Of a stretch of DNA of 64,000 nucleotides, positions 20,172 through 55,610 are shown in pieces (position 1 is the stretch's first letter; every line of letters begins with the position of its first letter). The stretch comes from Candidatus Cloacimonadota bacterium (GTDB lineage Bacteria > Cloacimonadota > Cloacimonadia > Cloacimonadales > Cloacimonadaceae). Made by a program: the position numbers and the translations under genes. Under the pieces are notes generated by a model. That model was not told where the DNA came from. It saw only the letters and a list, made by a program, of their open reading frames with translations, and made no database searches. The stretch spans positions 1 to 64,000 of the forward strand of contig JASKKR010000005.1 of the NCBI GenBank assembly GCA_030154085.1, read 5' to 3'.

Positions 20172-20233
20172 TCTTGACAAGTTAAATGATTAAGATCAAT
20201 ATGAACCCTAAAGAAAATGAAGAGGAGAAACAA

Positions 20234-20542
20234 ATGACTATCGATCTTAGTTTTAGTGGGAATGTAGCCTCAATGAAGATTGACGGCATTTTAAACAGCG
20301 AAAATGCTCATCTCTTGCAAGAAAAACTTGATGAAGTAATGAAGAGTGACGCAACATTGCTGGAACTTGATCTTTTTGATTGCCGCAATATATCTTCTAC
20401 GGGTATTGGCAAAATTCTTTTATTTTACAAGGACTTTATTTCTAAAGGTGGGGATATTGAAGTAGTGCGCAGCTCAAACAGTGTATATGAGCTTTTTTCT
20501 ATGCTGAAACTGAACCAACTTTTTACGGTAAACCTTGGCTAA
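20234..20542 (+). CDS. STAS-domain anti-sigma factor antagonist-like protein
   Basis: The 102-residue protein is a stand-alone STAS domain. LELDLFDCRNISSTGIGKIL aligns with the SpoIIAA/RsbV loop, with Ser55 at the position that is phosphorylated in those proteins. The chosen ATG at 20234 follows gaggag at about 8 bases; an upstream in-frame ATG at 20186 has no ribosome binding site and adds a lysine/glutamate-rich tail of 16 residues. The next gene, 9 bases downstream, encodes a receiver domain joined to an HATPase of anti-sigma-kinase type. Together they look like a partner-switching module in which the kinase phosphorylates this protein. No sigma factor or phosphatase is nearby, so the output is unknown. 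Confidence 0.8.
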   Translation: MTIDLSFSGNVASMKIDGILNSENAHLLQEKLDEVMKSDATLLELDLFDCRNISSTGIGKILLFYKDFISKGGDIEVVRSSNSVYELFSMLKLNQLFTVNLG

Positions 20543-20551
20543 CATGACATT

Positions 20552-21481
20552 ATGGCGGAGAAGCACCATATTCTGGTCGTAGATGATAGTATCGCCATTG
20601 TTAATTCGCTGCAGTCCATATTAAGTATTAGTGGTTTTAATGTAGATAAAGCATACAATGCATGCGAGGCTATGCGCAAGCTGCATAATGGGCATTATGA
20701 TCTAGTTATTAGCGACATCGAAATGCCGGGAACATCAGGGTTAGAATTCCTGAGCATGATTCGAGAAGAATTTGGTCGTCAGATAGATGTAATCTTGATG
20801 ACAGGATATTTGGAACAAGACTATTTTATTGAAGCTATTCGTCTTGGAGCTAGCGATTTCATCCGTAAACCAATAGACACGAAGCAGATTGTAAATTCGA
20901 TCCGTGAGCTTTTTTATCGCAGACGTAATATGGATGATATTACGGAATTTTATTCCCAATTGGACAAAATAACATTATGCTTTGACCTTAATGCAGCAAA
21001 GTTTTCAAAATATGCCATTTCCAAGATTTTTAGCTCTTATCTCCAACGATATTTCAAAATCGATCCCAAGACACTGAATGAGCTCTTGGTCTGTCTAGAT
21101 GAAATGATTTACAATGCATATATCCATGGGACATTAGGACTAAGTCCTCAAGAAAGATCTCTTCCGCATGAGGAGCTCATCCAGGTGATAGAAAAACGAT
21201 TTGCAGATCCCAAGATTAAGAACAGGAAAGTAGAGCTGACTTTAACGATCGATAATCTTAATAAAGAAATAGAAATCTCCGTTAAAGACGATGGGGGTGG
21301 ATTTGATCATGAAAATTGGCTGAAGATGGTTAGGAATGAGCAGATTCTTGATATCAAGGAATATGGACGCGGACTCGTTATGCTCTATCACTTAAGTGAT
21401 GAATTGTCTTTTGAAAATGACGGTAGACTCATTCGGATACGGAAAAAAGTAGCTAATCCCATACCCGATGAACATTCGTGA
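20552..21481 (+). CDS. response regulator with C-terminal HATPase (anti-sigma kinase-like)
   Basis: The 309-residue product begins with a receiver domain: acidic pocket Asp11/Asp12, phosphorylatable Asp55 in DLVISDIEMPG, Thr84 and Lys106. After a linker of about 40 residues, a HATPase_c domain resembling RsbW/SpoIIAB follows, with the N-box in LDEMIYNAYIHG, the G1 box DDGGGFD and a G2 box EYGRGLVML. The likely role is a stress or signal-controlled serine kinase for the adjacent STAS protein, with phosphorylation of the receiver gating the activity. It overlaps prmC by 14 bases. The cognate sensor kinase is not in this window. Confidence 0.85.
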   Translation: MAEKHHILVVDDSIAIVNSLQSILSISGFNVDKAYNACEAMRKLHNGHYDLVISDIEMPGTSGLEFLSMIREEFGRQIDVILMTGYLEQDYFIEAIRLGASDFIRKPIDTKQIVNSIRELFYRRRNMDDITEFYSQLDKITLCFDLNAAKFSKYAISKIFSSYLQRYFKIDPKTLNELLVCLDEMIYNAYIHGTLGLSPQERSLPHEELIQVIEKRFADPKIKNRKVELTLTIDNLNKEIEISVKDDGGGFDHENWLKMVRNEQILDIKEYGRGLVMLYHLSDELSFENDGRLIRIRKKVANPIPDEHS

Positions 21482-26348: not shown

Positions 26349-26421
26349 TCACGCAGATCGTGATGATGAAAGCATTGATATAAACAAATAAGAAAAACTG
26401 CGTAATTTCATGGAGGAAATT

Positions 26422-28107
26422 ATGAAAAAAATGATTACTCTGACAATTTGTCTAATAGCAGCTGTGGCCGTATGGGCTCAAGGTCTCGAGACCTTTGATA
26501 ATTTCGATTACACAGGTACGAGCTACGTCGATGGAGACTTCGTAGGTGAAAATGGAATTGTTTGGAATTATTATCACGTGACAGGTGCTGTTGCTGGAAG
26601 CAATGACAATTCCATTGATGGGAATGGCATGATCTTGCGGCGAAGTGAAGTTCCCAGCCGGATCGTTTCTGGTCCCATTCCTGGTGGTATTGGAAACTTT
26701 TCTGTGCAAATGCGCAAAGCTTACACAAGTGCTGGAGATCGTCAATTAGCACTATACATCAATGATATATGGATTGCTGATTCTCAGATCTTTGGTGGCA
26801 CTCAAGGCGGAGATGAGACTGTATATGAATTTGTAGTTAATGGTGTGAACGTACCTGGAGAATTCACCATGGAAATTCGTAATATCCAAGGTGGCAGCAG
26901 CAACCGCCAGGTGACCATCGACAATATCAGCTGGACTGCATATGGTAGTGGTATGCAGTTTGTATCCAATCCTACTTTTGATCCTCCAGCTGGTTATTAT
27001 GCAGACCCAATTAATGTGACAATTAGTTGTACAACAGAGAATGCAAGCATTTATTATACTACCGATGGTAGTGATCCGGATGAAAGTTCAACATTGTTCA
27101 CTGCTCCAATTTTAGTAAATAGCCCGACTACAATCAAGGCGAGGGGCTATGCTGATGGTTATGAACCGAGCGCTATCGTAGTAGCTAACTATGGCTTTGT
27201 AGTACCCGTAAATGACCTTGCGCAATTGAGACAGCAAGAAGCCGATAATGAGACAGTATATCAAGTGACATCACCTGTGATCCTCACCTTCCAACAGAGC
27301 AACAGGAATCAGAAATACTTCCAAGATAGTTCCGCGGCTATTTTGGTTGATGATCAACCCGGAACCATTACGAGCACATATGAGATCGGAGACGCTGTCG
27401 TTGGTCTCACAGGTAAGCTGAATTACTATTTCGAAACATTGCAATTTATCCCTACTCAAGATCCAGGACAAGCTGTATCCAGTGGAAATGATGTTGATGT
27501 TCCCACTCTTACTATAGCAGATATCAATGGAGATATAGGATTCAACAATTATCAATCTCGTTTGGTTTTGATAAACGAGGTCAGCTTTGTCAATCCTAGT
27601 GGCGTCTATGAAACTAATCCTGCAGTAAACTATGAAATCACTGATGCGACCGGTCAGATGACATTCCGCACTAGTTTCTATGATGTTGATTATATCGGTA
27701 CTCCGATGCATACTGGAACTTTCAATATCATGGGAATTATAGCTCATTATCAGAGCACAGCCCAGATTACCCCCCGTATGTTAGCTGATTTTAATCCTGT
27801 CTCAATTGATGATCCATCATTAGTCCCTGGTCAGGTGAAGCTATTAGGGAACTATCCCAATCCATTTAACCCAACCACTACTATTCAATTCCAGATGGAG
27901 CGATCAGTTCCTGCTGAAATCGTGATCTATAATCAAAAGGGTCAAATTGTAAAGAGATTTGATAACATTCGAACTCAACCAGGAATGAATAGCCTGGTGT
28001 GGGATGGACTTGATAACAACGGCTCCATAGTCACCAGTGGAGTTTATTTCTTCCGCCTTAAATCCGGAAGCTACAGTTCCACACGAAAAATGGTCTTAAT
28101 GAAATAA
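26422..28107 (+). CDS. secreted multidomain protein with FlgD-like C-terminal sorting tail
   Basis: The 561-residue product has a signal peptide ending in AVWAQ. Next come a jelly-roll-like region (to about residue 180, GSSNRQVTIDNISW) and a chitobiase C-terminal-like repeat near 185-255 (FDPPAGYYADPINVTISC, YYTTDGSDPD). An OB-fold-like region follows at about 260-455, similar to Bacteroidetes DNA/sugar-binding OB domains (YFQDSSAAILVDD, LTGKLNYYFETLQF). The tail from about residue 470 starts LLGNYPNPFNPTTTIQF and ends KMVLMK, the FlgD-like/Por-type tail used for cargo sorting in several phyla. It is probably exported to the surface. GGAGGAAATT right before 26422 fixes the start; an ATG four codons earlier overlaps that site. 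Confidence 0.82.
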   Translation: MKKMITLTICLIAAVAVWAQGLETFDNFDYTGTSYVDGDFVGENGIVWNYYHVTGAVAGSNDNSIDGNGMILRRSEVPSRIVSGPIPGGIGNFSVQMRKAYTSAGDRQLALYINDIWIADSQIFGGTQGGDETVYEFVVNGVNVPGEFTMEIRNIQGGSSNRQVTIDNISWTAYGSGMQFVSNPTFDPPAGYYADPINVTISCTTENASIYYTTDGSDPDESSTLFTAPILVNSPTTIKARGYADGYEPSAIVVANYGFVVPVNDLAQLRQQEADNETVYQVTSPVILTFQQSNRNQKYFQDSSAAILVDDQPGTITSTYEIGDAVVGLTGKLNYYFETLQFIPTQDPGQAVSSGNDVDVPTLTIADINGDIGFNNYQSRLVLINEVSFVNPSGVYETNPAVNYEITDATGQMTFRTSFYDVDYIGTPMHTGTFNIMGIIAHYQSTAQITPRMLADFNPVSIDDPSLVPGQVKLLGNYPNPFNPTTTIQFQMERSVPAEIVIYNQKGQIVKRFDNIRTQPGMNSLVWDGLDNNGSIVTSGVYFFRLKSGSYSSTRKMVLMK

Positions 28108-29017: not shown

Positions 29018-30311
29018 TATAGCCTTTACCACAAGCTCTCAAGCCATCACTATGCTGGCTTCCTTTGTGGTAAATTGGTATTTAGCGCGGTTTTTAGGAC
29101 CTGAACTCAGAGGACAATACGTATATCTGTTCACCGTGAATTCTGTAGTGTGGCTATTGCTTGATCTCGGAGTCTCCAAATCGCTGATGTATTCTTTGCA
29201 AAGGGATAAAGCAGATCCATCCGCATTGTATAGTATGTCTTTGGTGTTTTTTGGGATCAGCTTGCTATTATCGATAGTGATATTTCGCTTTTTTTCTACC
29301 CAGATTTTGGGGGGCAATCAGTATTCTGCTTTGATAGTACTTGCTTTGAGCATCTATATAGCTTTCTTCCAATTGTACAATAGGCAAAAGGTGATTTCTA
29401 TAGGATTGAATAATATCAAGGATTATTCTTTACTGCTCACTATGCCTACTGTAGTTTTCATGCTCTTGATCCTGCCACTGTTTTGGTTGTTTCCTACTCA
29501 CTATCGAATGCAGGGCAGTTATTTATTGTATGTAACCGTGATGATATCGATCTGTGTCTTTTTTCACAAAAGGATCACAAAAAAGATACACTTCCACTTT
29601 AGTTGGGATTACCCCTTAGTCAAGCGTTCCTATTCCTTAGGGTTCAAAGCATTTTTGAGCGAATATATGGCCATCATGATGACCAAGGCAGATATACTTA
29701 TCCTCAAACGCCTGGGGAGTTTTGCGGAACTTGGTGTATATACTTTGGCTATCAATTTTATCGATATCATAAACGTTACAAGCAATATGATCGGGGTAGT
29801 ATTGCTAAATAAGTTTGCTGCCTTAAATAACGACTCAGCTTCTTTGGTTATTCTCCGCAAGATCTTCGTTCTCATGATATGCTTTAATCTGATCTGCATC
29901 ATCGGTATGTTGGCCTTTGGGCATTTCATTATCGGCTTTTTGTATACTACAGATTACATTGGAGCTTACAAAGCTTTTATCTATCTGATTCCTGCCATAT
30001 TTGGCCTTACGCTGGGCTCCTTATTCAATACCTTTCTCTGGAGTAAAGGCTTCCCAATATTTACAATTATTGCCCCAGCGACAGCGACTTTGCTGAAGGT
30101 AGTCCTTAGCAGTATACTCATCCCCAGAATGGGATATCTGGGAGCAGCCCTTGCTTCGTCGATCGTATATCCGGTATGGTTTATGCTGCTACTGATCTGG
30201 TATTTTAGTACTCACAAAGAGCAAAAGCTTTCTTCTTTGCTCTTCCGCAAGAGCGATATCAAGGATATGGGGCTAATGCTAAATGCACTTTATGCAAAGA
30301 TTAGAGGTTAA
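28992..30311 (+). CDS. polysaccharide flippase (MATE/Wzx-like)
   Basis: The 439-residue protein has about 12-14 predicted membrane helices and the opening RNIAFTTSSQAITMLASFVVNWYLARFLGPELRGQYVYL, typical of the oligosaccharide flippase (polysaccharide biosynthesis) family. KADILILKRLGSFAELGVYTLA in the middle is another family landmark. It likely flips a lipid-linked oligosaccharide across the inner membrane. It lies between a DMT exporter and a tandem glycosyltransferase, consistent with a surface-glycan gene cluster. It overlaps the DMT gene by 26 bases and ends 1 base before the next gene. The partial gene at the left window edge has a similar N-terminus. Confidence 0.88.
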   Translation: MSEINLKRNIAFTTSSQAITMLASFVVNWYLARFLGPELRGQYVYLFTVNSVVWLLLDLGVSKSLMYSLQRDKADPSALYSMSLVFFGISLLLSIVIFRFFSTQILGGNQYSALIVLALSIYIAFFQLYNRQKVISIGLNNIKDYSLLLTMPTVVFMLLILPLFWLFPTHYRMQGSYLLYVTVMISICVFFHKRITKKIHFHFSWDYPLVKRSYSLGFKAFLSEYMAIMMTKADILILKRLGSFAELGVYTLAINFIDIINVTSNMIGVVLLNKFAALNNDSASLVILRKIFVLMICFNLICIIGMLAFGHFIIGFLYTTDYIGAYKAFIYLIPAIFGLTLGSLFNTFLWSKGFPIFTIIAPATATLLKVVLSSILIPRMGYLGAALASSIVYPVWFMLLLIWYFSTHKEQKLSSLLFRKSDIKDMGLMLNALYAKIRG

Positions 30312-30312
30312 A

Positions 30313-32553
30313 ATGAGAGTAGTCTTTATCAACACAATATTTCCCAATCCAGTTGAACCCACCAAAGGGATATTTGTGCTCAAAAACCTGATGCACTATC
30401 CTCCCGAGATAGAACTTGAAGTAATTGCGCCAGTTCCCTTTTTTCTCGCTTTACGCAGAAAGAAAAGAGTGAAGGTCCCCTTGTGGCGCAATATTGAACT
30501 TAATGGACGCCAGCTGCGTGTTTGGCATCCCCGTTTTCTCCTCTTCCCAGGCAACTTTCTGCAACCCTGGATACCATATTTTGAATACCTCAGTGTTTTA
30601 CCGCTTTTTCACTATTTACACCGGAAAAAAGCAATAGACTGCTTGCATGCTAATTTCTGTCTACCTGATGGGATTGCGACCGCAAGACTGGCACAGAGAT
30701 TTGGCATTCCTTATATTATTACCGAGCATCAGGCAGCTTTGGCTGATCTTTTGAGCAAATCCACCCTCGCGCGGTTGATGCTGGCGGCATATTCTCGAGC
30801 TCACAAAGTTATTGCAGTTTCTCGGCATACCGGACAAATCCTTTTGGATGCAGGTTTATCCCCCGAAAAGCTAAAGGTAATCCCCAATGGAATAGATACT
30901 TCTCTCTTTGTCCCTGCAGCACATTCAGGAAAGATCAAAAAACTGATCTACGTGGGTTATCTGGTCGAACGCAAGGGTGTGCAATACTTGCTCAAGGCAT
31001 TATCTATCTTGCAAGATACCAGCTTGAGACTTAGCATAGTAGGGGATGGAGATTATCGGGCTGATCTACAAAAACTTTGTCAGCAGTATGGCATCAGTGG
31101 ACAAGTGAGATTTTTGGGTGAAAAGAATGCCACTGAGGTGGCGCAGTTGTTAGCGGAACATGATGCTTTAGTCCATCCCAGCTTAATTGAGAGTTTTGGC
31201 ATCTCGGTAGTGGAAGCCATGGCTTCAGGATTACCGGTATTGGCCACTCAGAATGGTGGCAGCGAGGATATCGTTACTCCTCAGACCGGAATCATCGTTA
31301 AGCCACGCGATCCTGAAGCGCTGGCTGAAGGTCTACGAGAACTGATTGGGACCAGCTGGGATAGTGAGTTGATCAGTAATTATGCTCATAGTAATTACGA
31401 TATCCGACAAATAGTTAGCAGGACTATCCAAGAATATCCCAACATAAATCCTTCACACACTGTCTGTCACCTTAGTTCAGTACATATTCGGACTGATGTC
31501 AGGGTATTTTACAAACAGTGCCTTACTTTGATAAATGCAGGTTACAAAGTGCATCTAGTCGTAGCAGATGGTCAGGGCAATCAGCGTAAAGGTGGCGTAA
31601 TTATCCATGATGTTGGGACATACAAAAGTCGCAGACAGCGTTTCTTTTTTGCTCCGATAAAAATACTTAGGCAAGCACTGCAAATTAAAGCAGATGTCTA
31701 TCAGATTCACGATCCAGAGCTATTACCGATAGCTGTGATCTTGAAGTATCTGAGCCGCAAACCGGTGGTTTATGACATCCATGAATGTTATGCTGAGCTT
31801 TTTTTACACAAGGGTTATCTTTCTTCTGCCCGAGGGAAAGCTCTCTCATATCTAATCAAATACATAGAGCGTGGCAGTCTCAAACTTCTTGACCAGGGCA
31901 TTGCTGCCACCGAGCATATAGCAGAACAATTTACAGATATTCCTACGATCCATAACTACCCGATCTTAGCTGAATGGGAGCAAGTGGATAATAACATCAA
32001 ACGCTATCAAAGCCGTAATATATGCTATATTGGCAATATCACCAAAGAACGGGGTATAGGGCGTGTCGTTAAAGCTCTGGCCGCTGTGGATTGCCGATTT
32101 CTTCTGGCCGGAAGATACGAACCGGCTGAGTATCGTGAAGAATTGCGAGCTTTACCTGGATTCGATAAAGTAATCGAATATGGGTATGTAGACCGGACTC
32201 AGGCTGCCGAGATCTTTTCCCAATCTGCTCTGGGGATCGTGCTTTTGGATAAAAGCCCCAATAATCTTTATTCACTTTCTACCAAGATCTTTGAATATAT
32301 GGCAGCTGGCTTGCCGGTCCTGATTTCTGATCTTCCTACTAGTGTGGAGCTTATTCACAAATCTGGAGCTGGGCTTTACCTTGATCCCGAAAATATCGAT
32401 AAGATTGCCGAGACCCTCAACCAGCTTTTGGATAATCCCGAAGCTCTTGCTCAAATGGGGAAAAAGGGCAAGCAGCTTGTCCATCAGGAACTTTCTTGGG
32501 AAAATGAACAAGAAAAATATCTGAATATCTATGCAGAACTTTTATCTAGATAA
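30313..32553 (+). CDS. tandem GT4 glycosyltransferase (two catalytic units)
   Basis: The 746-residue protein contains two complete GT-B glycosyltransferases. Unit 1 (about 1-365) has VIPNGIDTSLF, IYVGYLVERKGVQYLL and the donor-site E-x7-E motif in SLIESFGISVVEAMASGLPV. Unit 2 (about 372-746) restarts with CHLSSVHIRTDVRVFYKQCL and has VYDIHECY, GIGRVVKALA and STKIFEYMAAGLPVL. Unit 1 resembles RfaG/PimB-type enzymes, and unit 2 those of capsule clusters. Two consecutive sugar additions on the same acceptor are plausible. The ATG at 30313 follows gaggtt; an upstream in-frame ATG at 30283 is inside the flippase. The reading frame is continuous across the junction, so a true fusion is likely. Confidence 0.85.
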   Translation: MRVVFINTIFPNPVEPTKGIFVLKNLMHYPPEIELEVIAPVPFFLALRRKKRVKVPLWRNIELNGRQLRVWHPRFLLFPGNFLQPWIPYFEYLSVLPLFHYLHRKKAIDCLHANFCLPDGIATARLAQRFGIPYIITEHQAALADLLSKSTLARLMLAAYSRAHKVIAVSRHTGQILLDAGLSPEKLKVIPNGIDTSLFVPAAHSGKIKKLIYVGYLVERKGVQYLLKALSILQDTSLRLSIVGDGDYRADLQKLCQQYGISGQVRFLGEKNATEVAQLLAEHDALVHPSLIESFGISVVEAMASGLPVLATQNGGSEDIVTPQTGIIVKPRDPEALAEGLRELIGTSWDSELISNYAHSNYDIRQIVSRTIQEYPNINPSHTVCHLSSVHIRTDVRVFYKQCLTLINAGYKVHLVVADGQGNQRKGGVIIHDVGTYKSRRQRFFFAPIKILRQALQIKADVYQIHDPELLPIAVILKYLSRKPVVYDIHECYAELFLHKGYLSSARGKALSYLIKYIERGSLKLLDQGIAATEHIAEQFTDIPTIHNYPILAEWEQVDNNIKRYQSRNICYIGNITKERGIGRVVKALAAVDCRFLLAGRYEPAEYREELRALPGFDKVIEYGYVDRTQAAEIFSQSALGIVLLDKSPNNLYSLSTKIFEYMAAGLPVLISDLPTSVELIHKSGAGLYLDPENIDKIAETLNQLLDNPEALAQMGKKGKQLVHQELSWENEQEKYLNIYAELLSR

Positions 32554-35334: not shown

Positions 35335-35412
35335 GGGGGCGTAGTTCAGTTTGGTTAGAACGTCTGCCTGTCACGCAGAAGGTCGCGAGTTCGAGTCTCG
35401 TCGCTCCCGCCA
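35335..35412 (+). tRNA. tRNA-Asp (anticodon GTC)
   Basis: The sequence GGGGGCGTAGTTCAG...TCGCTCCCGCCA folds as a full cloverleaf. The acceptor arm GGGGGCG pairs with CGCTCCC (one G-T pair). The anticodon stem TCTGC/GCAGA encloses CTGTCAC with GTC as anticodon, which reads aspartate codons. The T arm contains GTTCGAG. Discriminator G and CCA are encoded. It sits between its own promoter and a strong terminator. Confidence 0.96.
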
Positions 35413-35455: not shown

Positions 35456-36694
35456 ATGAAAACCATTTATATACTTCTATTTTTGTCAATGAATGCTCTT
35501 TTAGAGCTTATTTTCTTAATCGGATATCCTATACTAAGGCTCATTTTACCGTTCTATCAATATACAGAAAGCATCAAACGAATGCCTTTAAGAGATAATC
35601 ACCCCATCCTAATTCATGCAGCTTCAGTTGGCGAAATCAACGCTGTAGTGCCCCTTATCAAGGAATTAATCAAACATAAACAAAGCATTTTGATTAATAC
35701 GTTTACAGTCTCTGGTAAAGATCGTGCTAAAGAGCTATTCCCAAAATTGGAAGTCAGGCTTGCACCCTTGGATTTGTATAGCTTAAGAATATCTCAATTA
35801 AGAGCAATCAAACCCAAGCTAATCCTCATCGTGGAAACTGAAATTTGGCCCAACCTGCTTTATGCAGCTGGTAATTTTCATATTCCTGTAATCTTTATCA
35901 ATGCAAGGATATCAGCAAAAACTCTTAGTCGATATCTAAGGTTTGGCAACTTGTTGAGGCTTATTAGCCCGAGTGTTACAAAAGTTCTAGCGCAAAGCGA
36001 ACTTGATCAAGAGCGTCTTCAAAAACTTTTTCCCATTCATGTCGAAAATGCTGGTAACTTAAAATATTGTTTGAATCTTCCCGCCTACGATACTTCGCAA
36101 GTGCGTAGTAATTATATGTTTAATGAAGATGATTTTATCATAGTATGGGGAAGTTCACGACCTAGAGAAGAAGAACTAATTGTGTCTTATCTTCCATTAC
36201 TGCGGAAGAGTATCCCTAATCTGCGGTTGATATTAGCTCCTAGACACCCCAAACGTAGTTCGGATATTGCAAGATTGTTAAAGGATTACGACTATGTATC
36301 ATATTCTGAAATTAATCAAAAAAGATCTCGAGCTGAAATTGTTCTAATTGATACATTAGGTCATTTAACTGAAGCATATTCAATCTCTGATATAAGTATT
36401 GTAGGTGGTTCCTTCTATGATTTTGGTGGTCACAATCCTTTGGAACCAGCCTTTTATGGTAAATGTATAATAATGGGAGAGTACTATTCTTCCTGTAGAG
36501 ATTCTGTACAAGAACTGCTCAAAGCGGGTGCAATAATATTATCTAGTAGGGAAAATCTTCCTGAGATAATTATAGATCTATACAGGAGAAATGATCTACG
36601 AGACTCAATGGGGCAGAAGGCGCGATTAGTTTTGAAAAAAAATGCTACTGCACTTAGTAATCATATGAGAGGTATAATGCCATGTCTGAAATGA
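35456..36694 (+). CDS. waaA: 3-deoxy-D-manno-octulosonic acid (Kdo) transferase
   Basis: The 412-residue enzyme has an N-terminal membrane anchor (ILLFLSMNALLELIFLIGYP), then PILIHAASVGEINAVVPLIKEL, VETEIWPNLLYAA, FINARISAKTLSRY, LRLILAPRHPKRS and the C-terminal VGGSFYDFGGHNPLEPA, all of the WaaA/KdtA GT30 family. It adds Kdo to lipid A and shows that the cell makes a Kdo-type lipopolysaccharide. A longer in-frame reading from 35351 crosses the tRNA and terminator, so ATG 35456 is preferred; no clear ribosome binding site precedes it. It overlaps the radical SAM gene by 13 bases. The start lies just 10 bases past a terminator, so its own transcription start is unexplained. Confidence 0.93.
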   Translation: MKTIYILLFLSMNALLELIFLIGYPILRLILPFYQYTESIKRMPLRDNHPILIHAASVGEINAVVPLIKELIKHKQSILINTFTVSGKDRAKELFPKLEVRLAPLDLYSLRISQLRAIKPKLILIVETEIWPNLLYAAGNFHIPVIFINARISAKTLSRYLRFGNLLRLISPSVTKVLAQSELDQERLQKLFPIHVENAGNLKYCLNLPAYDTSQVRSNYMFNEDDFIIVWGSSRPREEELIVSYLPLLRKSIPNLRLILAPRHPKRSSDIARLLKDYDYVSYSEINQKRSRAEIVLIDTLGHLTEAYSISDISIVGGSFYDFGGHNPLEPAFYGKCIIMGEYYSSCRDSVQELLKAGAIILSSRENLPEIIIDLYRRNDLRDSMGQKARLVLKKNATALSNHMRGIMPCLK

Positions 36695-37683
36695 TCAGAG
36701 AAGCAATGTATTATAGAACATTGGATAAAAGTCACTTAAAGTGCGAATTATGTCCGCATTTCTGTGTGATCCCTATAGGGGAAAGAGGTCGATGCCGCTC
36801 TAGAGGGAATCTTGATAATCATCTTTGGGCAATAAACTATGGTAAAGCTTTAGGGATTTCTTTAGATCCTATAGAAAAAAAGCCCTTATATCATTTTTTC
36901 CCAGGAAGTAAGATACTTTCTTTAGGGCCGAATTCATGCAACTTAAATTGCAAATGGTGCCAGAATTATCAAATATCCCAATTTGAGGCGAATACTATAG
37001 ATATGCCATTGGATGAACTTTATGGACTTGTGCAACAATATAGTCCCAGCACGAAGCATATTGCTTTTACCTATACTGAGCCACTAACATGGTATGAATA
37101 CATTATGGATTTTGCTGTGCAATATCCGGATGTTAAGGTTGTATTAGTGACTAATGGATTCATCAATGAAGAGCCTCTGACTGAGCTCTTACCACATATC
37201 AGTGCTATGAACATTGATCTTAAAGGAATGTCTGAAGATCTATATCATAATTACTGCGGCGGCAAGCTATCTACTGTCAAAAATGCCATCATCCAAAGCT
37301 ACAAAGCTAACGTACATATAGAAATAACATTGTTATTGATTCCAGGGCTTAATGATTCAAAAGAAAAGCTTGTTAATTTGGTAGATTTTATTGCTTCCAT
37401 CGATATCAATATTCCGTTGCATATTTCAGCATATCATCCTGACTTTATGATGGATATCCCTGCGACTACTATTGATGATATCCAAAGAGCCTATGATATT
37501 GCCAAAGCAAAACTTCGGTATGTATATGGAGGGAATCTTCCAGTGGATGATATGCGCGATACTTTCTGTCCGGAATGTGGCACTCAGGTTATTTCAAGAA
37601 GAATATTCGGTCAAATATTGAATAAGGCTAAGTCAGGAAAATGTCCAAAATGTGGACAGAGGATCTATGGCTGCATTGTTTAA
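36682..37683 (+). CDS. amrS: AmmeMemoRadiSam-system radical SAM enzyme
   Basis: The 333-residue protein begins with a cysteine-rich patch (CELCPHFCVIPIGERGRCRSR) and has the radical SAM cluster CNLNCKWC near residue 92, followed by HIAFTYTEPLTWYEYI and MNIDLKG. The last 45 residues form a zinc-ribbon (FCPECG ... CPKCG). This domain order matches AmrS, the radical SAM member of the AmmeMemoRadiSam system, and pyruvate-formate-lyase activating enzyme-like proteins. The usual partners AMMECR1 and Memo are not in the window. The reaction is not established. It overlaps waaA by 13 and the next gene by 17 bases. Start could be 36682 or 36691. Confidence 0.88.
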   Translation: MSEMIREAMYYRTLDKSHLKCELCPHFCVIPIGERGRCRSRGNLDNHLWAINYGKALGISLDPIEKKPLYHFFPGSKILSLGPNSCNLNCKWCQNYQISQFEANTIDMPLDELYGLVQQYSPSTKHIAFTYTEPLTWYEYIMDFAVQYPDVKVVLVTNGFINEEPLTELLPHISAMNIDLKGMSEDLYHNYCGGKLSTVKNAIIQSYKANVHIEITLLLIPGLNDSKEKLVNLVDFIASIDINIPLHISAYHPDFMMDIPATTIDDIQRAYDIAKAKLRYVYGGNLPVDDMRDTFCPECGTQVISRRIFGQILNKAKSGKCPKCGQRIYGCIV

Positions 37684-38035
37684 AAGCTATCTAAAAAGCA
37701 TGAGTATTAGCGATCTAATCTTGATTTTATTGTGCTTATTTGCCTCCTCTTATTTGTGGACACGGCAAGAACAGAAGGATGCTTATTTGGTGGTTTATAA
37801 AGATGACCAGATATTTGGTGAATATCTACTATCTGAAGATATTCAACTTGTTATAGATGAACACAATAGCATAGAGATCAAGGATGGGAAAGCTCGAATC
37901 TCATATTCTGATTGTCCAGATAAACGATGCGTAAAGCAAGGCTTCAATAACAATATGCCAATTATTTGCCTACCAAACCGTCTGGTTTTAGAATTTCGTA
38001 GAAAAGACGGTGATCACCGCTTAATTTTGCAATAG
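37667..38035 (+). CDS. NusG domain II-containing membrane-anchored protein
   Basis: The 122-residue protein has one N-terminal membrane helix (ISDLILILLCLFASSYLW) and a small extracytoplasmic beta domain matching NusG-II proteins: AYLVVYKDDQIFGEYLL, IEIKDGKARISYSDCPDKRCVKQG and ICLPNRLVLEF. The DCPDK-C cysteine pair is a family hallmark. Such proteins often sit with Rnf or FMN-transfer genes, but function is unknown. The start ATG at 37667 follows agagga; it lies inside the end of amrS (17-base overlap). ApbE at 50466 is not adjacent. Confidence 0.82.
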   Translation: MAALFKSYLKSMSISDLILILLCLFASSYLWTRQEQKDAYLVVYKDDQIFGEYLLSEDIQLVIDEHNSIEIKDGKARISYSDCPDKRCVKQGFNNNMPIICLPNRLVLEFRRKDGDHRLILQ

Positions 38036-38041
38036 GATACT

Positions 38042-39970
38042 ATGAAAATAGCATTATATGTTTCCAATCATGGCTTTGGACATGCAAGCCGGATGGCAGC
38101 TTTGGCAAAAGCTTTTACAACATTTATGATCGAAATCGTAATTTGCACGGATCGTCCAAAGTATTTGTTTGATGATCTTCCTCAAGACTTGGTTAGCTAT
38201 CGAACAATCTCCATTGATAAAGGCGTGATTCACAAAGAGAATTTAGTGGTGGATATTGATGCAACAAAAGATGCTTTGTTTGAGTTGTTTTCCAGACGCG
38301 AATTGATTGTTGCTGAAGAAGCAGATTTTCTTAGGCGAGAGAAGATTGATTTGGTTATATCTGATATCCCATACTTTATTATAGAATCATGTGGTTATGC
38401 TGAAATTCCTATATTTGGTGTATCCAATTTTGATTGGTCTTATATCTATGATAGTTTATTCGGTATGGATCAAGATACCCAGCCACTTATCAATGTTATA
38501 CGAAGCTTGTATCGCAGAATGGATGGAAGCTATTTGTTGAATATGGGATATCTAGAAAGTGTGCCAGGTTTTCGAAATCCTAAAAAGGGAGGCATGCTTG
38601 CCAGAACACTTTCAGAACCTATTAATATTCGAGCCAAATATGATATTGAAAAGTCACAAAAAATCTTACTTATAAGTTTTGGAGGAGAAGGAATCCTAGA
38701 ACTTAATCTTGAGATGATTTGTGCGGCTTGGGATGGAGTAGTTCTCTGTAGCTATCCAAGCCCTGATATAAGCAATCTAATCAAGATATCTCCCGATGAG
38801 GATTACCTTAGTGTGATTTACGAGGCTGATCTAATATTGTGCAAACCCGGATACAGTACTTTCGCTGAAATTCTAAGTATGGGCAAACCTATGATTTACA
38901 TCCCGCGCAACAATTACCCTGAAGAAAAAGTCCTGATAGAGGGAATAAAAGACTATCCAGCTGCAATACAAATAGACAGGATACCTGATAATATTGATGA
39001 AATCAAAGCATTATTTAATAAAGTACATAATGCGGATAACAAACTGCCTGTTTCAAATGACAAACTAGCTGGATGCATCCTTTCGGATTATTTAAAGATC
39101 AGATATCCTGAAGATAAGCTAATCAGTATTTATGATCTTGGTTCTAATAACATGAACTATCTGCTTTATAACAAGACGCGTGATATTGTAATTCACAGAG
39201 CTTGGTGCACAACAGGGTTGGGACGAGATTTTGCGAATGATCGATTATCGGATCGCAGTATCCAAAGAGCATTCATGGTCATTTCCAAAATCATGAATTT
39301 TGATAACGAGATATCTTCACAAAAGGAACTTATAGCGACTGGAATCAATCGTAAAGCTCTTAATAAAGATCTATTACTTGATATGGTCAAGGATAGATGG
39401 CAAATAAATACGAAAATTATCTCTGCAACCCGTGAAATGAGGCTATCTTGGCTGGCAAGTGAAAGAATCGGTACTGATGTCAAACAAAAGCTAGTGATCG
39501 ACATTGGAGGGGCAAGCACAGAGGTTAGTTATCTCGATAATAATAAGCTGAGTGGGAAGTCGTTCGATTTTGGGTTACAAAGCCTAATTCGAGATTTCTC
39601 TTCAATCGACCAAGCATTGATATCTGTACAAAATGCTTTTAGTGAGCTTCCCGAAATACCAAATCCTAACTTGATTGCTGTTGGTCTTACAGCAACGATT
39701 CTAGCAAGAACCTTACTTGGAATTCCCTATAAAGATATACTTAGAAAAGATTTCCTCACAATCAACATAGATCAAATCGATAGCTTTTTAAGAGCAGTAG
39801 AGTTGAATCAATTTCATAACTATGAAGACTTGTTTGAAGATCGGTATGAGCAGGACTCAATTTATCTTGCTGCCTGCATAATAAAGCTATTACTGGACAG
39901 ATATCGCTGTTATAATTTTATGGTTTGTAATGATGGAATATCTATGGGATATGCAAAATGGAAAAAATGA
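38042..39970 (+). CDS. fusion of a GT-B glycosyltransferase-like domain and a Ppx/GppA domain
   Basis: The 642-residue protein joins two folds. Residues 1 to about 350 look like a MurG/L-arabinokinase-type GT-B unit: NHGFGHASR at 9-17 matches the G-x-G-H-x-x-R glycosyltransferase loop, and ILCKPGYSTFAEILSMGKPMIYIPR near 275-299 matches the sugar-nucleotide donor site. From about 360 the protein resembles exopolyphosphatase/GppA (ASKHA fold): YDLGSNN at 364-370, TTGLGRDF, IATGINRKAL, and VIDIGGASTEVSYL at 485-498, the second phosphate loop. The catalytic EEARL region reads REMRL (464-468). Neither half shows a frameshift. It overlaps the DAHP synthase gene by 13 bases. The combined function is unknown. 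Confidence 0.78.
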   Translation: MKIALYVSNHGFGHASRMAALAKAFTTFMIEIVICTDRPKYLFDDLPQDLVSYRTISIDKGVIHKENLVVDIDATKDALFELFSRRELIVAEEADFLRREKIDLVISDIPYFIIESCGYAEIPIFGVSNFDWSYIYDSLFGMDQDTQPLINVIRSLYRRMDGSYLLNMGYLESVPGFRNPKKGGMLARTLSEPINIRAKYDIEKSQKILLISFGGEGILELNLEMICAAWDGVVLCSYPSPDISNLIKISPDEDYLSVIYEADLILCKPGYSTFAEILSMGKPMIYIPRNNYPEEKVLIEGIKDYPAAIQIDRIPDNIDEIKALFNKVHNADNKLPVSNDKLAGCILSDYLKIRYPEDKLISIYDLGSNNMNYLLYNKTRDIVIHRAWCTTGLGRDFANDRLSDRSIQRAFMVISKIMNFDNEISSQKELIATGINRKALNKDLLLDMVKDRWQINTKIISATREMRLSWLASERIGTDVKQKLVIDIGGASTEVSYLDNNKLSGKSFDFGLQSLIRDFSSIDQALISVQNAFSELPEIPNPNLIAVGLTATILARTLLGIPYKDILRKDFLTINIDQIDSFLRAVELNQFHNYEDLFEDRYEQDSIYLAACIIKLLLDRYRCYNFMVCNDGISMGYAKWKK

Positions 39971-54848: not shown

Positions 54849-55610
54849 ATGAAAACACTTGGCATCGACATTGGTTCTCGGAATACAAAGATAGTGATCT
54901 TTGATCATGACGCAAATCAAATTGCTTTCAGAGATTGGATATCGACAGAGGTATCGGCTGAGGATAGTGTCAATAAACTCTTGTCTCACGCCGAAAAACA
55001 AATATCTTTGGACGAAATCTCTTCTACATGCGTAACAGGATACGGACGAAAACTTTATAAAAAAGCAGATAAAATCAGAAGTGAGATTAGCTGTCATGCC
55101 AAAGCTTGTCACTTCCTTTACCCTAATACCCGCACTGTGATAGATATCGGTGGTCAAGATTCTAAAATCATTGCTCTAAACGAAGATGGCTCAGTGAATG
55201 ACTTTGTGATGAACGATAAATGTGCGGCAGGTACAGGTAGATTCCTAGAAATGACTGCAATTAAGCTAGAGTGCGAATTATCAGAATTATCGCGTCTGGC
55301 ATCTATGGCAGAAAATCATATTCATTTAAATTCTACCTGTGTTGTATTTGCAGAGTCAGAAATCATCGGACTTTTGGCTAGTGGACATAAAGTTCCAGAC
55401 ATCGCTCGTGCAATCAATATGAGTATCGCACGCAGAATTTATACTCAAATGTCATCCATTGAGCTGAAAGAAGCTGTGATCTTTACGGGAGGTGTGGCTC
55501 AAGGTACAGATTTAGTAAATTGCTTAGCTAATCTACTCAAAACTCAAATTCTGGTACCTTTTGACCCTGAGATCACTGGTGCACTAGGCGCAGCCCTTTA
55601 TGCTCTATGA
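54849..55610 (+). CDS. 2-hydroxyacyl-CoA dehydratase activase-like ATPase
   Basis: The 253-residue ASKHA ATPase matches the HgdC/BcrA-D activator family: MKTLGIDIGSRNTKIVIFD, VIDIGGQDSKII, NDKCAAGTGRFLE with Cys125, and NSTCVVFAESE with Cys164, the two cysteines that bridge the [4Fe-4S] cluster between two subunits, then FTGGVAQ. Such activators inject an electron into 2-hydroxyacyl-CoA dehydratases or benzoyl-CoA reductase in amino acid fermentation. No dehydratase subunits are adjacent. It overlaps the PHP phosphatase by 4 bases. Confidence 0.9.
   Translation: MKTLGIDIGSRNTKIVIFDHDANQIAFRDWISTEVSAEDSVNKLLSHAEKQISLDEISSTCVTGYGRKLYKKADKIRSEISCHAKACHFLYPNTRTVIDIGGQDSKIIALNEDGSVNDFVMNDKCAAGTGRFLEMTAIKLECELSELSRLASMAENHIHLNSTCVVFAESEIIGLLASGHKVPDIARAINMSIARRIYTQMSSIELKEAVIFTGGVAQGTDLVNCLANLLKTQILVPFDPEITGALGAALYAL

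Follow-up and report, generated by a model that had tools for sequence, protein, structure and literature searches.

The gene at positions 38042 to 39970 on the forward strand of the window, by which we mean the whole 64,000-nucleotide stretch of DNA analysed here from a Candidatus Cloacimonadota bacterium, joins in one frame what computation shows, in predicted models, to be a GT-B glycosyltransferase (GT) fold and a short-form Ppx/GppA phosphohydrolase fold of the ASKHA type. We favour the tentative reading, at a probability of roughly 0.3, that its product is a glycosyltransferase that uses nucleotide sugars and carries its own nucleotide phosphohydrolase, by analogy most simply a nucleoside diphosphatase for the product of the transferase. 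The domain architecture is new and is built from known parts. An earlier interpretation, here termed the sequence-only reading, knew of no such pairing, and this holds as far as the open-access literature shows: no description of the pairing was found there, most subscription journals lying outside it. The gene and its parts are:

38042-39970, forward strand: fusion gene, GT-B half plus Ppx/GppA half; an open frame, with a single spanning match in 44 of 124 Cloacimonadota genomes
38042-39067, forward strand: GT-B glycosyltransferase-like half, residues 1-342 (about 340); PF04101 over its cut-off, supported by a model of residues 1-350
39068-39109, forward strand: junction, residues 343-356, mostly within a model helix at residues 339-354 (DSSP); 14-16 residues long in 34 aligned fusions
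39110-39967, forward strand: Ppx/GppA half, residues 357-642, two-domain short form; PF02541 at 53.7 bits, 3mdq at Z 31.5

The frame runs from an ATG at 38042 to a stop codon ending at 39970, encodes 642 amino acids and contains no internal stops; the genome that holds it is 1.95 Mb in size and 99.75% complete, and the window is part of its contig C16. Across the junction, from 39000 to 39150, the remaining two forward frames are closed, and GC content at third codon positions is alike in the two halves (0.30 and 0.33); no sign was seen of a frameshift near 39100, a possibility that the sequence-only reading had raised. Since one match of the whole protein, used as a profile, covers both halves in 44 of the 124 genomes of the phylum (with the first residues missing in G031 and G046), a frameshift confined to this assembly cannot explain the fusion, and with the recurrence of the match an assembly artefact was ruled out. 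The open frame and these 44 genomes bear out a single continuous 642-codon frame joining two units. When the GT half was used as the profile, matches were obtained in 50 of the 124 genomes; of the six that remain, five (G016, G033, G059, G060, and G072) carry the protein in pieces, broken between contigs by position, and one, G012, carries the GT half alone (L041, 362 amino acids) at the same locus, between genes for a NusG domain II (NusG_II) protein and miaB.

The fusion is present in families f1, f2, f3, f4, f5, f7, f8, and f11, the window's protein belonging to f1. In a scan of GTDB r220, the best 80 of 412 relatives comprised 39 best loci from Cloacimonadota, including one named Candidatus Syntrophosphaera (same phylum), and 41 GT-only proteins, cyanobacterial by record name. 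Thirty-four of the 39 loci cover both halves, four stop at contig edges and one is GT-only; many come from the same assemblies as the 124 genomes and are not additive to the 44. No spanning match was present among the matches listed for 262 genomes of other phyla, in which GT-only and Ppx-only matches were listed separately, and no relative was found in viral contigs. How widespread the pairing is, a point that the sequence-only reading had raised, is thus answered by 44 of 124 genomes within the phylum and none among the matches listed outside it, although weak fusions may exist in other phyla, as the figures rest on listed matches and on the best 80 of 412 relatives. Nor were the two halves found as adjacent separate genes, an arrangement which the sequence-only reading had envisaged, in the 19 loci of other phyla that were read, some of them short (L167, 3.6 kb). 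Ten of the 17 genomes scanned from this set were positive for Ppx-GppA, which lay on the contig of the GT gene in two: about 7 kb off and on the other strand in G168, and about 1.27 Mb off in G186.

Family searches and confident AlphaFold models agree with the GT-B and Ppx/GppA assignments proposed from sequence. The C-terminal half exceeds the cut-off of Pfam PF02541, Ppx-GppA (53.7 bits against 27), which also matches all 23 aligned fusions at an E value of 0.01 or lower, and a Pfam search of the fusion protein found no GHMP kinase family. The N-terminal half exceeds that of PF04101, Glyco_tran_28_C (26.4 bits against 22), with a best stretch of only residues 253-291 and a match at E 0.01 or better in nine of the 23 aligned fusions; two cyanobacterial GT relatives and the GT-only L041 matched no Pfam family at E 0.001. 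Scores fell below the cut-offs of TIGR01133, MurG (18.4 bits against 250.25, residues 242-289), of TIGR00661, MJ1255/VC2487 (34.2 bits against 195.9, residues 3-295), and of the exopolyphosphatase family TIGR03706 (78.5 bits against 307), the last a strict test, as the canonical Ppx paralogue of the same genome is also under it (185.6 bits).

The full-length model, built from a 41-row alignment, has a mean predicted local distance difference test score (pLDDT) of 92.6 and a predicted template modelling score (pTM) of 0.91. Its residues 359-642 match the exopolyphosphatase 3mdq (Z 31.5, root-mean-square deviation (rmsd) 2.7, 283 aligned), its C-terminal half matches the H. pylori PPX/GppA with ppGpp, 6pc1 (Z 29.6, rmsd 3.0, 277 aligned), and residues 1-381 match the uridine diphosphate (UDP)-glycosyltransferase YojK, 7vm0 (Z 25.2, rmsd 4.1, 342 aligned). 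Modelled alone as residues 1-350 (pLDDT 94.0), the GT half matches YojK (Z 24.9, rmsd 3.6, 331 aligned), GtfD (Z 24.5, rmsd 3.3, 320 aligned) and MurG 3s2u (Z 22.9, rmsd 3.1, 284 aligned), so that its nearest folds among the matches listed are UDP- and thymidine diphosphate (TDP)-glycosyltransferases and MurG. The Foldseek list of the full-length model also holds Legionella NTPDase1, 4brm, at rank 50 (E 1.3e-11).

Conservation was counted over 34 aligned fused proteins, with 26 stand-alone Ppx proteins and six canonical paralogues as comparison rows for the Ppx half. In the GT half the conserved motifs are:

38066-38092, forward strand: NHGFGHASR loop, residues 9-17; of 34 fused proteins, H10 in 32, G11 in 33, G13 in 32, H14 in 33 and R17 in 33
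38843-38869, forward strand: KPGYSTFAE, residues 268-276, within the TIGR01133 match; K268 in 34/34, G270 in 33/34 and E276 in 33/34
38906-38926, forward strand: RNNYPEE, residues 289-295; R289 in 33/34 and E294 in 34/34

The motifs to which the sequence-only reading had pointed are in place, NHGFGHASR at residues 9-17, YDLGSNN at 364-370 and DIGGAST at 487-493. By analogy with MurG, KPGYSTFAE is a putative donor-site region, and we presume that the HGFGHxxR loop and the GxST..E motif have the roles they have in MJ1255/VC2487-type and GT28/MurG enzymes. The GT motifs are intact in the fused proteins except in row L052, which is cut short at its start, and in the decayed f11 protein, L038, which lacks H10 and G13; this f11 fusion (L038:7885-9801) keeps its Ppx residues intact beside the decayed GT half. 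In the Ppx half the corresponding features are:

39134-39151, forward strand: phosphate-1 loop DLGSNN, residues 365-370; D365, G367 and N369 in 34/34 fused proteins, D365 in 25/26 stand-alone proteins
39350-39352, forward strand: R437, aligned with E. coli PPX R93; 34/34 fused, 26/26 stand-alone
39434-39436, forward strand: E465, aligned with E. coli PPX E121; 34/34 fused, 26/26 stand-alone, 6/6 canonical paralogues
39500-39523, forward strand: phosphate-2 loop DIGGASTE, residues 487-494, with Ala491 for the third glycine; D487 in 34/34 and E494 in 32/34
39683-39691, forward strand: GLT, residues 548-550, where most other Ppx rows have GGT; Leu549 in 26/26 f1 fused rows, glycine in 25/26 stand-alone rows

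The hydrolytic set D365, R437, E465, and D487 is invariant in the fused proteins, with E494 kept in all but two, while R437, E465, D487, and E494 are invariant in the stand-alone proteins. R437, E465, D487, and E494 align as the equivalents of E. coli PPX R93, E121, D143, and E150, which we take to be hydrolysis and metal-binding residues, E121 with a catalytic role. Equivalents of these residues have been assigned in the M. tuberculosis Ppx-GppA proteins (PMC3411833). The loops are less constant. The window protein has DIGGASTE and GLT in place of intact DIGGGSTE and GGT loops; the third glycine of DIGGGSTE is lost in 25 of the 26 f1 fused rows and kept in all 26 stand-alone rows, and Leu549 of the f1 rows sits in GLT or GLS. 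The f2 loops are changed too, and fused f3, f4, f5, f7, f8, and f11 retain both glycines.

These loops bear on a different explanation, for which we see a rather shaky case, namely that in f1 the Ppx half would mainly bind a nucleotide or phosphate ligand and thereby switch the transferase on or off, hydrolysis being residual or a timer. The loss of the third glycine in 25 of 26 f1 rows and the replacement of Gly549 by leucine in all 26 would suit such a switch, as would the confident predicted arrangement of the halves (pTM 0.91) and the faster divergence of the f1 Ppx half, whose pairwise identity averages 33.1%, that of the GT half being 47.1% (325 pairs), the halves of the other fused families being alike (33.4% and 33.9%, 28 pairs). 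M. tuberculosis Ppx-GppA proteins that do not hydrolyse pppGpp are reported to be inhibited by it (PMC3411833). However, even the fast-evolving rows keep D365, R437, E465, and D487 (34 of 34 fused proteins), which a pure sensor would not need; furthermore, the third-glycine change occurs in one of the six unfused canonical paralogues (L056) and so is not peculiar to the fusion.

The sequence-only reading had proposed that sugar transfer is linked to hydrolysis of polyphosphate or of guanosine tetra- and pentaphosphate, (p)ppGpp, in an envelope operon with waaA. We consider this improbable. Assignment of the C-terminal half to Ppx/GppA by Pfam and by fold speaks for it, as does the occurrence of RelA_SpoT in five and of VTC in one of the 44 fusion genomes, in none of which PPK1 or PPK2 exceeded the cut-off. 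Against it, the window's genome gave no match to PPK1 (PF02503, PF13090), PPK2 (PF03976), VTC (PF09359) or RelA_SpoT (PF04607), profiles whose searches gave positive matches in E. coli or other control genomes, and neither the polyphosphate nor the (p)ppGpp link was upheld. Across the 124 genomes of the phylum, PF02503 exceeded its cut-off in none and PF13090 in two, both f9, while PPK2 did so in one, VTC in 16 and RelA_SpoT in 22. Because the known synthases are unmatched in the host and rare among fusion genomes, polyphosphate or pppGpp is unlikely, judging from sequence, to be the main substrate of the Ppx half, although an unknown synthase may exist. The organism seems unable to make the known Ppx/GppA substrates, and the Ppx half probably has another job. 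We found no report of a Ppx without a polyphosphate kinase in the open-access literature.

Given that the fusion is conserved (44 of 124 genomes) and that hydrolytic and GT residues are kept, that the nearest listed structures to the GT half are UDP- and TDP-glycosyltransferases and MurG, that an ASKHA nucleoside phosphatase (4brm) is in the Foldseek list, that the known polyphosphate and (p)ppGpp synthases are unmatched in the window's genome, and that two GT-half relatives, L161 and L164, adjoin phosphoryl-transfer genes (two of six loci scanned), we favour a bifunctional enzyme, which would be cytosolic. In this scheme, the GT half would take a sugar from a nucleotide-linked donor, probably a UDP sugar, and pass it to an acceptor, releasing a nucleoside diphosphate (NDP); the Ppx half, its phosphate loops altered in the window's family, would hydrolyse a nucleotide phosphoanhydride, most simply that of the released NDP, to nucleoside monophosphate and phosphate, polyphosphate and pppGpp presumably not being its main substrates; and removal of the NDP would relieve product inhibition and back-reaction. 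Hydrolysis of NDP is proposed because a precedent is reported in M. tuberculosis, where ATP and ADP are both substrates of two Ppx-GppA homologues, of which one cleaves neither polyphosphate nor pppGpp (PMC3411833).

The distribution of the Ppx half raises a further possibility, which we hold as tentatively as our own, that neighbouring genes of different pathways were joined for co-expression, the Ppx half doing the job of its stand-alone orthologues and the GT half its own. The Ppx-half profile matches at E 0.001 or better in 118 of the 124 genomes, many of which carry at least two matches, including a canonical one; in the window's genome the canonical paralogue lies on contig C3 (155.1 bits). 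The lineage of the fused half itself occurs stand-alone, at about 300 amino acids, in f9, f10, and f13, in which the GT half was not found. In the Ppx tree, in which f1 sits on a long branch, the fused rows do not form one clade: stand-alone f6 groups with fused f7 (100/96) and stand-alone f10 with fused f11 (90/49). Because stand-alone f6 and f10 nest among fused rows, the GT half has likely been lost in places, and the fusion may have arisen once or several times; in f6, 140 residues before the Ppx half of L046 resemble a GT remnant, at a weak score of 7.1 bits. Such single losses, including that of the Ppx half in G012 and that of GT function in f11 and perhaps f6, are in keeping with co-expression, as is the position of aroF, which follows stand-alone Ppx in 18 of the 18 f9/f10 loci read (a part of the stand-alone loci) and follows the fusion in 19 of 34, where miaB follows in 12, neither in two and a contig edge in one. 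Joint expression alone, however, requires no fusion, and one frame with a near-constant junction of 14-16 residues is kept in 34 of 34 proteins though gene order has changed across families.

Several observations weigh against the phosphohydrolase-equipped transferase that we favour. The Ppx half stands alone in f9, f10, and f13, where the GT half was not found, so its role does not depend on a transferase; conversely, the transferase does not need the phosphatase, because G012 keeps the GT half alone, and in f11 the Ppx half is retained behind decayed GT motifs. The changed f1 glycines could equally mean weakened catalysis. In the M. tuberculosis study the nucleotide activity is modest, with a millimolar Km for ATP and almost no action on GTP, and neither ATP nor GTP was hydrolysed by E. 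coli PPX (PMC3411833). A single-sequence search of the GT loci collected found no second case of the GHMP or BadF partners seen at L161 and L164. We regard the switch and the co-expression fusion as about as good as the reading we favour.

The genes around the fusion form a tight series, of which the nearest members are:

35456-36694, forward strand: waaA, Kdo transferase, likely start ATG 35456; PF04413 at 150.7 bits
36682-37683, forward strand: amrS radical SAM gene; TIGR04337 at 285.1 bits (cut-off 220)
37652-38035, forward strand: NusG domain II protein, directly upstream of the fusion; PF07009 at 79.3 bits
39958-40731, forward strand: aroF, DAHP synthase, overlapping the end of the fusion; TIGR01361 at 328.5 bits (cut-off 267.75)

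The series runs from waaA (35456) through amrS (36682), the NusG_II gene (37652), the fusion (38042) and aroF (39958) to miaB (40728), and its neighbours overlap save for a six-base gap before the fusion. A tRNA-Asp gene (35335-35412) lies just before waaA, and the longest waaA open reading frame (ORF) starts inside it (TTG 35351), so that start calling may err here. Overlaps and gaps of a few bases confirm that in this genome the fusion is packed with waaA and amrS in the manner of an operon, which the sequence-only reading took as co-transcription and which speaks for its idea. The envelope role drawn from waaA did not fare as well. WaaA was matched in 97 of the 124 phylum genomes, and the match is missing in eight of the 44 fusion genomes, including the near-complete G034 (99%), G028 (98%), and G038 (97%), while many f9, f10, and f13 genomes have WaaA and no GT half was found in them. 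Because WaaA is unmatched in these eight genomes, near-complete ones included, the fusion does not depend on Kdo transfer, and a Kdo-lipopolysaccharide role as the general explanation was ruled out by the same eight genomes and by changes in neighbourhood. Of the earlier interpretation as a whole, then, the folds, the fusion and the packing stand, and the polyphosphate or (p)ppGpp link and the envelope role do not.

All 26 fused loci of f1 have NusG_II directly upstream, and none of the eight from other families does, though in two of these the upstream sequence is too short. In f13, a gene for 351-353 amino acids, ispG by size and start, precedes Ppx in six of seven loci, and aroF is downstream in none of them, nor is it downstream of Ppx in f6. 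The f9 loci (L144, L043, and others) have a common order of ispG, Omp85-like, NYN, Ppx and aroF genes, confirmed by Pfam for L144. Among loci of GT-half relatives, five cyanobacterial ones inspected by eye gave no clear lead, and a Pfam scan of the neighbours at six further loci, out of the 19 read, found a phosphoryl-transfer gene at two, a nucleotidyltransferase at one and none at three. The two, both in other phyla, are L161, where the end of a GHMP kinase gene overlaps the GT-half relative, and L164, where a BadF-type ATPase adjoins it. At L161:1294-5400, in an unrelated genome, genes for a hexapeptide protein, the GHMP kinase, the GT-half relative and a PIG-L deacetylase lie in one run, the kinase/GT overlap being an unfused parallel to plant arabinokinase; at L164:6432-8282 the relative lies by a BadF/BcrA-type ATPase, a Pfam family also present in the window at 54849-55607. 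Elsewhere in the window we observed a 756-amino-acid ORF with two group-1/family-4 glycosyltransferase modules (30283-32550; PF00534, two stretches), a response-regulator receiver domain fused to an HATPase_c_2 kinase domain (20552-21478) behind a small ORF (20186-20539), and a protein with a type IX secretion C-terminal sorting domain (26410-28104; PF18962, PF13585).

Annotation routinely casts Ppx/GppA proteins as enzymes of polyphosphate or alarmone metabolism. In this phylum, which is mostly without known polyphosphate synthases and many lineages of which also lack RelA/SpoT, the contrast is marked: among 124 genomes, the Ppx-half profile matches in 118, PPK1 (PF02503) is above its cut-off in none and RelA/SpoT is found in 22, and one Ppx lineage is GT-fused in 44. 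What a Ppx/GppA protein acts on where neither classic substrate is made is thus a question that can be tested with one purified protein. We advance as speculative that the fusion is a self-clearing glycosyltransferase, that is, a nucleotide-sugar transferase equipped with a nucleoside diphosphatase derived from a Ppx/GppA enzyme. If true, membership of Ppx/GppA would not always imply action on polyphosphate or alarmones, and the two lineages of Ppx in Cloacimonadota would mark an unrecognised nucleotide-phosphate function.

The two halves differ in distinct ways from the systems they resemble. The fused Ppx half shares its fold with the short Ppx/GppA phosphatases (A. aeolicus 1t6d/2j4r, C. 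hutchinsonii 3mdq, M. tuberculosis Rv0496 and Rv1026), its length of about 290 amino acids without C-terminal domains, and the R/E/D/E hydrolytic set at nearly equal spacing. Unlike these enzymes, it sits behind a GT-B domain, has the third glycine of DIGGG and one glycine of GGT replaced in f1, and occurs in a host genome without a matched polyphosphate or (p)ppGpp synthase. NTPDases or apyrases such as Legionella NTPDase1 (4brm), which we take to be phosphohydrolases of the ASKHA superfamily, are similar in fold by Foldseek, whereas the sequence of the fused half is that of Ppx/GppA. The GT half has the GT-B fold, the HGFGHxxR loop and the GxST..E motif in common with MJ1255/VC2487-type (TIGR00661, PF13528) and GT28/MurG (PF04101) proteins; in contrast to MJ1255/VC2487 and MurG, it is far under both cut-offs, is fused to a phosphohydrolase and has a conserved K268 and YPEE. 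Its motifs, we presume, also resemble those of the N-terminal half of plant L-arabinokinase, ARA1. That enzyme has the same layout as the fusion, a GT-like N-terminal half followed by a phosphoryl-transfer C-terminal half, and is described in PMC12281597 as an N-terminal putative glycosyltransferase with a C-terminal sugar kinase. Unlike in ARA1, however, the C-terminal partner in the fusion is a Ppx-type (ASKHA) phosphohydrolase and not a GHMP kinase.

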